Below, one piece after another: positions 20,532 through 22,367 of a stretch of 64,000 nucleotides of DNA. This DNA comes from Halovivax cerinus (GTDB taxonomy: Archaea > Halobacteriota > Halobacteria > Halobacteriales > Natrialbaceae). Each line of letters starts with the position of its first letter. Positions within the stretch are counted from its first letter, which is position 1. The DNA lies in contig NZ_CP101824.1 in assembly GCF_024498195.1 (NCBI RefSeq), positions 2,356,001 to 2,420,000 on the forward strand. Reading direction: 5' to 3'. The position numbers and the translations under genes are program-made. The notes below the pieces were generated by a model. It was not told the origin of the DNA and made no database searches. It saw only the letters and a list, made by a program, of their open reading frames with translations.

Positions 20532-20675
20532 GCCCGGGTGGCTTAGCTGGACATAGCGCCGCACTCATAGGGTTCAGAGATTCGGTGCGGCACAGCGAGT
20601 CCGTGTCCCACGAGGACTGCCGAGCCTCGGACCTGGGACATGCGGAGATCGAGGGTTCGGAGCCCTCCCCGGGCA
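20532..20675 (+). tRNA. Elongator tRNA-Met (CAT) with a ~70-nt intron
   Basis: The acceptor stem GCCCGGG (20532-20538) pairs with CCCGGGC (20668-20674), followed by A. The anticodon stem CCGCA pairs with TGCGG across an interruption, with anticodon CAT at 20566-20568. The T arm is GAGGG-TTCGGAG-CCCTC. The intron runs from about 20570 to 20639, directly 3' of position 37, the usual archaeal site. Its exact ends depend on the bulge-helix-bulge fold and may shift by one or two nucleotides. Intron-containing elongator tRNA-Met is known in haloarchaea. Confidence 0.9.
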
Positions 20676-20881: not shown

Positions 20882-22069
20882 TCACTTGTCGATCCGCGAC
20901 TCCAGCGTCGCGAGTCGGTCTTCCAGTTCGGAGATGCGCTCGTCTTTCTCGTCTATGGATTCTGCCAGTCCCTGAATCGCGGCGAGCGCGACGCCGTCGG
21001 AATCGACCGACGCGATGGCGGTCTCGTCCGCGCCGAGATCGAACGTGTCTGCGAACTCCTCGGCCATCGGTCCCATGTGTCGGCCGTCTTCGTGCTCGCG
21101 GAACTCCCAGGTGGTGACCGAGAGCGACCTGACGCCCCGGAGTGCGGCCTGCGGGTCGACCGGTTCGACGTTCGTCTTCGCCGCGCTGGCGCTCACAGTG
21201 TTGAACGCCGGTGCGTGGATGGGCATCTGGAAGTGCGCTTCGTCGGGACCGGACGACGAGATGTCGGTGTCCGTAGAGTCCCCGAACACGACCGCTCCGT
21301 CGTGCGTTGCGGTGGCGCCCCGACCGGCCGCGAACGAGTCCTCGCCGGCCGCTTCGTTCGAGAACCCGCCGGGAACGGTCGCCCGATCGCCGCTCGCCGT
21401 GTTGTTACGACCGCCGCCGACCGTCGCGTGGGCACCGCTGGCCGTATTCCCCTGTCCGCCCGTGGCGCCGCCACCGCCGACCGTCGCTCGCCGGGCACTC
21501 GCCGTATTGCCGACACCGCCACCGACGGTCGCGTCGACGCCGCTCGCCTCGTTGCCCGCGCCGCCGGCCACCGTCGCCGCCTGACCGGTGGCTTCGTTTC
21601 CCCAGCCCGCGCCGACCGTCGATCGAATGCCCGTGGCCTCGTTCTCGAGTCCGCCGCCGACGGTCGCGTACTCCGCTTCGGTCTCGTTGTCTTCGCCACC
21701 GCCGATCGTCGTGTGCTTGCCTCTGGCGGTATTCCACGCGCCGCCGCCGATGAAACTCAGGGTGCCCTCCGCCAGATTACCGCCACCGCCGTCGATGCCT
21801 TCGACCGTGCCGCCGCCAGCGATGGTACTCGCGGTCCCCGTCGTCCGATTGTTTCGGCCGCCGCCGACGACGCTGTACCGACCGAACACCGAGTTGTCGT
21901 GACCGCCGCTCGCCGTCCCGAAGTCGTCCCCGGTGAGGTTCCGCTCGCCACCGCCGACGGTACTCGCCTGTCCGTCGGCTCGGTTGTCTTCGCCGCCGCT
22001 GACGGTGCTCAGGTCGCCATTCGCCTCGTTTCCGACGCCGCCGCCGATCGTGCTTCCCTCGCCGCTCAT
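20882..22069 (-). CDS. YadA-head-like repeat protein with C-terminal S74-type chaperone domain
   Basis: The protein has 395 residues. Residues 1 to about 250 are some fifteen repeats of 14-16 residues of the form STVGGGxxNxAxGxxA (for example STIGGGVGNEANGDL). This is the left-handed beta-roll pattern of trimeric-autotransporter heads. From about residue 300 to the end it resembles the peptidase S74 intramolecular chaperone of phage tail spikes: SASAAKTNVEPVDPQAALRG, WEFREHEDGRHMGPMAEEF, then a coiled coil (IDEKDERISELEDRLATLES). The self-cleavage pair of S74 is normally S-x4-K, and SASAAK keeps that spacing without the usual Asp. No signal peptide is seen on this frame. See also the ORF just upstream. 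Confidence 0.8.
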   Translation of the reverse strand: MSGEGSTIGGGVGNEANGDLSTVSGGEDNRADGQASTVGGGERNLTGDDFGTASGGHDNSVFGRYSVVGGGRNNRTTGTASTIAGGGTVEGIDGGGGNLAEGTLSFIGGGAWNTARGKHTTIGGGEDNETEAEYATVGGGLENEATGIRSTVGAGWGNEATGQAATVAGGAGNEASGVDATVGGGVGNTASARRATVGGGGATGGQGNTASGAHATVGGGRNNTASGDRATVPGGFSNEAAGEDSFAAGRGATATHDGAVVFGDSTDTDISSSGPDEAHFQMPIHAPAFNTVSASAAKTNVEPVDPQAALRGVRSLSVTTWEFREHEDGRHMGPMAEEFADTFDLGADETAIASVDSDGVALAAIQGLAESIDEKDERISELEDRLATLESRIDK

Positions 22070-22117: not shown

Positions 22118-22309
22118 TCAATCGCCGGTCGGTCTCTCCAGGTTGCTGTCCGGTTTCTCCGAGTTGGTCCGTGTCGTGTCATTCGTGTTCTCCATCGATC
22201 CGCTCCGTTCGCGCCGCTTCGGGTGTTCTTCCTCGCGCGTCTTCACGATGCTCGAGCCACCGGTACGGCCCATCCGCTGGCGATACAGATCGCTACCCGT
22301 TTCCATCAT
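22118..22309 (-). CDS. Small ORF upstream of, and in frame with, the S74-type protein
   Basis: This 63-residue frame begins MMETGSDLYRQRMGRTGGSS and is rich in Arg, Glu, Asn and Thr, without a membrane segment or domain I recognise. Its stop codon (22118-22120) is followed in the same reading frame by 16 open codons and then the start of the S74-type protein. It could be a separate short protein, or the original N-terminus cut off by a nonsense change. A TATA-like CGTTAAGC (minus strand, about 22347-22354) precedes it by some 40 bp, so transcription of the pair probably begins here. Confidence 0.4.
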   Translation of the reverse strand: MMETGSDLYRQRMGRTGGSSIVKTREEEHPKRRERSGSMENTNDTTRTNSEKPDSNLERPTGD

Positions 22310-22367
22310 CGATAGCTAATCACCGACGCTATCTACGCGAACGTAGTGCTTAACGGTATCCGTTGAA

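Follow-up and report, generated by a model that had tools for sequence, protein, structure and literature searches.

The protein described here unites two modules that are each known from other systems. Intramolecular chaperones of the Peptidase_S74 (S74) type are found in phage tailspikes and, as the ICA domain, in MYRF. The S74 domain cuts at the serine of a Ser/Lys dyad five residues apart, S587/K592 in MYRF (PMC3742440). S74 fibres have also been reported in bacterial eCISs (PMC12923769), and contractile injection systems (CISs) are known in haloarchaea (PMC11566945). The second module, a head built from short repeats, is familiar from trimeric autotransporters of the UspA1/YadA type, which carry a Sec signal and an outer-membrane beta-barrel anchor. 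In the literature searched, we found no description of haloarchaeal S74, head–S74 or tail-fiber-domain proteins, and automatic annotation labels head–S74 fibres 'tail fiber domain-containing proteins'.

In this study, we examined a 64,000-nucleotide stretch of the Halovivax cerinus genome (contig NZ_CP101824.1, positions 2,356,001 to 2,420,000; hereafter the window). An intact open reading frame on its minus strand (20882..22069) encodes a head–S74 fibre protein of 395 residues, with M1 at 22069 and the stop codon at 20882-20884, exactly as originally delimited. This window protein is a real, maintained, signal-less variant of a kind of protein common in bacteria and phages. Its left-handed beta-roll head (residues 1-275; 21245..22069, minus strand) comprises about 15 repeats of about 15 residues with the pattern [ST]-x-[VI]-G-G-G-x-x-N-x-A-x-G. 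Thirteen units follow the strict 15-residue pattern, whereas composition shuffles average 0.23 and do not exceed 3, and they are spaced 15 residues apart except at two gaps, each occupied by one insert-bearing unit, so that the count of some fifteen repeats made at first sight holds. By phmmer against the PDB, the head of the Moraxella adhesin UspA1 (3pr7) matches residues 79-265 (E 8e-41). An AlphaFold2 model of one chain, built from 28 sequences and having a mean pLDDT of 81, runs from a beta-roll through the S74 domain to a final single helix (residues 357-394), and it superposes on the heads of UspA1 (3pr7, Z 19.0) and BpaC (7o23, Z 18.8). The structure prediction that had been proposed as a check thus gives, for the single chain, a beta-roll of the expected kind. 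The coiled coil noted at the outset corresponds to the modelled helix; this C-terminal segment (residues 357-395; 20885..21001, minus strand) also shows 3-4 heptad spacing in its sequence.

While head sequence and predicted fold are common to the window protein and the UspA1/YadA-type heads, the means of secretion and anchoring are not. We found no Pfam match to a C-terminal beta-barrel anchor at E values up to 1, the protein ending instead in the helix that follows S74, and it has no Sec signal. Assignment as a trimeric autotransporter (type Vc) is therefore rejected. The likeness to such proteins drawn in the original prediction survives for the fold of the head and fails for anchor and signal.

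The S74 domain (intramolecular chaperone; residues 293-356; 21002..21193, minus strand) was recognised by two routes. The Pfam family Peptidase_S74 (PF13884) matches residues 296-343 (E 4e-7; 30.6 bits against a cut-off of 22), which bears out the chaperone that had been proposed, and a Foldseek search with the model retrieved the MyRF ICA (7dc3, prob 1.00) and, more weakly, the intramolecular chaperone 3gw6 (prob 0.51). A profile of the S74 alignment gave only chance matches among PDB sequences. The predicted dyad, S293-K298, lies in the motif S-A-S-A-A-K (residues 293-298; 21176..21193, minus strand), and this S-x4-K arrangement is invariant in the aligned relatives, bar one divergent haloarchaeal protein (L059). 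Because S293 and K298 are the equivalent of the MYRF dyad, cleavage is predicted between V292 and S293 and would release residues 293-395; the cut first suggested, before S295-A-A-K298, is thus moved two residues upstream. The lowest pLDDT of the model falls at residues 289-293. By analogy with the chemistry of S74, we infer that the protein forms a trimer. Although fold match and dyad are shared with phage tailspike chaperones and the MYRF ICA, the passenger differs: the window protein is neither a virion part nor a transcription factor.

To place this protein in the cell, the absence of a signal is the central observation. Residues 1-60 contain no Sec signal peptide or hydrophobic N-terminus, in line with the original prediction; their highest hydropathy over 19 residues is -0.03, whereas two relatives with Tat signals reach 1.28 and 1.64 in their N-terminal parts. 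A twin-arginine signal is absent both from the window protein and from its ortholog (91% amino-acid identity) in a second genome of the genus, G207. DNA conservation between the two starts sharply at the ATG, the ATG and a GGAGG ribosome-binding site being kept and the sequence upstream mostly not. The dN/dS of the pair is 0.196 overall and 0.05 for residues 1-60, and the gene falls inside the range of its flanking genes (0.09-0.32). Together, the conserved start, the low dN/dS and the lack of a hydrophobic stretch argue that the signal is genuinely absent and the gene maintained; as read from the sequences, the window protein starts at the head repeats and is kept by selection. Since the dS of 0.27 lies near the bottom of the range for this pair of genomes, the gene may have been exchanged laterally between the two species, and the estimate of selection covers a short time. 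A candidate promoter region (22300..22367, minus strand), placed by alignment, is partly conserved in G207 (blastn, 74% over 76 nt), and blastn gave no comparable match in G070 and G100, two genus-mates that lack the gene. A small upstream open reading frame (22307–22118) was considered as a partner or missing N-terminus and rejected, as it is not conserved in G207.

A 1.7-kb insert, made up of the gene and its upstream region, lies between a tRNA-Met and a 5′-nucleotidase gene, at a site that is empty in G070 and G100. The downstream border of the insert is an intron-containing tRNA-Met(CAT) gene at about 20532..20674 (plus strand), read by eye because ARAGORN missed it, and it is the tRNA beside which the gene had been noted to lie. 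This tRNA is conserved in G070, G100 and G207, whose homology to the window stops at or just past it. The 3′ side of tRNA genes is a common integration site, and that of this tRNA-Met is variable in the genus; in G207, the same interval holds a lysyl-oxidase-like gene and has lost most of the nucleotidase gene. The neighbours in the window, housekeeping in character, comprise a ribonucleotide-reductase-like gene, a response regulator, DUF7115, the 5′-nucleotidase, TauE, MFS and PhoU/Pst, and we found no virion or integrase genes among them, as the original reading of the locus had it. Neither an att-like duplication of the tRNA 3′ end nor, around the locus, an Rfam match at gathering scores was detected.

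Of 292 Halobacteria genomes, 24 contain a match to the head–S74 gene. The S74 subfamily is frequent among bacteria and counts at least 418 confirmed places, the best 80 of which lie in haloarchaea, Verrucomicrobiota, Chloroflexota, Planctomycetota, Myxococcota, Lysobacterales and others. Many bacterial relatives carry the same head repeats. Those of the five bacterial groups just named resemble the window protein in many cases in repeats, S74 subfamily and coiled coil, but differ from it in that most have additional domains or a hydrophobic segment at the N-terminus. Maximum-likelihood analysis placed the 33 haloarchaeal S74 domains on one side of a branch (100/97), and their clade adjoins Lysobacterales, a Bacteroidetes bin from Great Salt Lake and Archangium. 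The haloarchaeal domain was, on this phylogeny, apparently acquired once from bacteria; with few columns and a midpoint root, the tree suggests the direction of transfer and the donor rather than fixing them. Viral sequences contributed little: among phage records only an Agrobacterium phage had an S74 match, and the IMG/VR matches placed in the tree all lie outside the haloarchaeal clade, so that no viral relative falls within it in the collections searched.

Within the haloarchaeal clade, the window protein and its ortholog are sister (99/80) to a protein encoded on a Halalkaliarchaeum plasmid (Halalkaliarchaeum sp. AArc-CO, L038, WP_259532799.1, 'tail fiber domain-containing protein'; 52% identity over 320 columns). 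This relative shares head repeats, an S-x4-K S74 domain and a coiled coil with the window protein, but has an N-terminal Tat-type signal and fewer regular repeats. Tat-type N-termini are the most frequent, being found in 18 of the 33 members, often preceded by an N-terminal coiled coil; seven have a signal-less 'NHDYN.P' ('DYN'-type) N-terminus and eight neither. The latter eight include at least three fragments (L002, L010, L031) and a protein with a possible lipobox, from the second gene of L088. In several bacterial members (L040, L096, L098, L111, L129, L136, L149; mostly Chloroflexota), a hydrophobic C-terminal segment follows S74, and cleavage would there detach the head from the membrane, as it does in MYRF.

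Taking these findings together, the window protein is probably an orphan, signal-less offshoot of the haloarchaeal head–S74 surface fibres, a family mostly equipped with Tat signals and apparently acquired once from bacteria; it would be a self-cleaving homotrimer, kept by selection and likely assembled in the cytoplasm. The C-terminal S74 domain, together with the coiled coil, would align three chains in register to form a homotrimeric left-handed beta-roll fibre. Once the trimer has folded, S74 would cut each chain before S293, leaving a mature head of residues 1-292 and releasing the chaperone. Lacking a signal, the fibre would most likely be assembled in the cytoplasm and serve in binding or as a structural element, either there or after non-classical release or lysis. 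An unexported fibre is odd in functional terms, which counts against such an explanation. The window copy is at the same time a natural test of head–S74 assembly without export.

Alternatively, the protein might be displayed on the cell as a surface adhesin, its trimer exported without a signal of its own by piggybacking on a Tat-signal relative or on a partner encoded elsewhere. Most relatives do have Tat signals, and a candidate partner exists. Many haloarchaeal head–S74 genes are adjoined by members of a secreted family with a common extracellular domain of about 200 residues (L053:8811-11723, L087:5262-6428, L005:8302-9633, L046, L055, L057 and others). The family occurs in 14 of the 24 head-bearing genomes, far above chance among the 292 genomes in all (Fisher p 1e-11). 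G041 encodes the domain as a fusion with a 7TM sensor histidine kinase, and elsewhere it is fused to CARDB; the partner reading frames of G113 and G058, likened by size, are of the same large size (946–973 aa). Partner genes are also present in the genome of the window (G000:C1:3267881) and in G207 (C1:1908792), away from the head–S74 gene. Against a role for them in export of the window protein, the copy in the window genome follows a Tat/QGQIGT coiled-coil protein without head repeats (L193:5273-6685, within L193:5273-8006; G000:C1:3266-3269 kb). Because the partner follows this headless protein, its occurrence seems to go with the N-terminal module and not with the head, and it would probably dock on this module, which the window protein lacks; the window contains no partner gene adjacent to the head–S74 gene. 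The one Tat-type head copy of the same genome is moreover broken. This second copy (L005:4278-9633; G000:C1:2484277-2489632), with a Tat/coiled-coil N-terminus and a partner gene, has a head disrupted both by an in-frame stop and by insertion of an IS200/IS605 element (TnpA/TnpB). Export of the window protein in this manner therefore appears unlikely, and the surface adhesin offered in the original prediction, while it suits most of the relatives with their Tat signals, does not suit the signal-less window copy as it stands.

For the family as a whole, the partner invites a speculative model, to which we give only slightly more credence than to piggyback export. Haloarchaea might rely on S74 to build trimeric surface fibres within the cell before sending them, already folded, through Tat, the fibre N-terminus then docking on a membrane partner, in some species a 7TM histidine kinase, for adhesion-sensing; the window copy would be an offshoot that is either retained in the cytoplasm or released. 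In many members a coiled coil precedes the twin-arginine motif, as would fit folded export. The monophyletic archaeal branch and the partner, with its histidine kinase fusion in one lineage, provide testable handles on how archaea build fibres and perhaps sense with them. This operon partner is, in our opinion, a more interesting lead than any link to a contractile sheath.

Such a link was nevertheless considered, given that the window protein could belong, as a fibre, to a CIS or another tail-like particle and, like phage fibres, be assembled in the cytoplasm. The window genome encodes a sheath and two gp19-like tube genes, with small genes between them, at C1:317-321 kb (L085:12445-16070), and in five related loci a short S74 gene without head repeats lies directly downstream of a gp19-like tail-tube gene (L039/L011, L039:9223-10531; L088:5139-6411; L090:2691-4283; L089:4961-6462; L012). 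The S74 fibres of bacterial eCISs point in the same direction. For the window gene itself, however, the sheath is nearly 2 Mb away along the sequence, and head and sheath genes occur together in 6 of 292 genomes, not significantly more often than by chance (Fisher p 0.12). G070 and G100 have a sheath without an ortholog at the window site; conversely, G045 and G253, the two sheath-searched genomes with gp19-linked S74 copies, have no sheath. The window protein also has no recognisable attachment domain. An injection-machine fibre, as had been suggested, is thus improbable for this gene, even though some close relatives adjoin tube genes. No baseplate genes were seen among the reading frames read near the L085 sheath cluster, which is directly followed by a tRNA dimethylguanosine methyltransferase gene.

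Least probable, by a little, is that the gene is a decaying remnant on its way out, N-terminally truncated or the virus relic beside a tRNA of the original prediction: several haloarchaeal copies are broken (L002/L005, L010, L025, L031) and the gene lies 3′ of a tRNA, but its reading frame is open in two species under purifying selection (dN/dS 0.196; 0.05 at the N-terminus), with no att-like repeat or viral gene nearby, and in the collections searched the haloarchaeal clade contains no viral contig.

Two further observations concern modules related to this family. The signal-less 'NHDYNVPE..DWH.PLN.NF' module is widespread on haloarchaeal megaplasmids (L195:12007-13266, L196:9998-11326, L197:10007-10315 and plasmid matches H19-H37). 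It had no clear phage match, and a role as a dedicated CIS attachment domain is not supported, as it also fronts or adjoins LamG, β-helix and carbohydrate-binding proteins; glycosyltransferase genes surround or lie close to the three loci inspected. Finally, the window genome encodes a third S74 protein (L004:7832-8896; G000:C1:2254 kb), with a strong phage-like S74 match (60.8 bits) and no head repeats, whose gene is situated upstream of a Mur-ligase-like gene.
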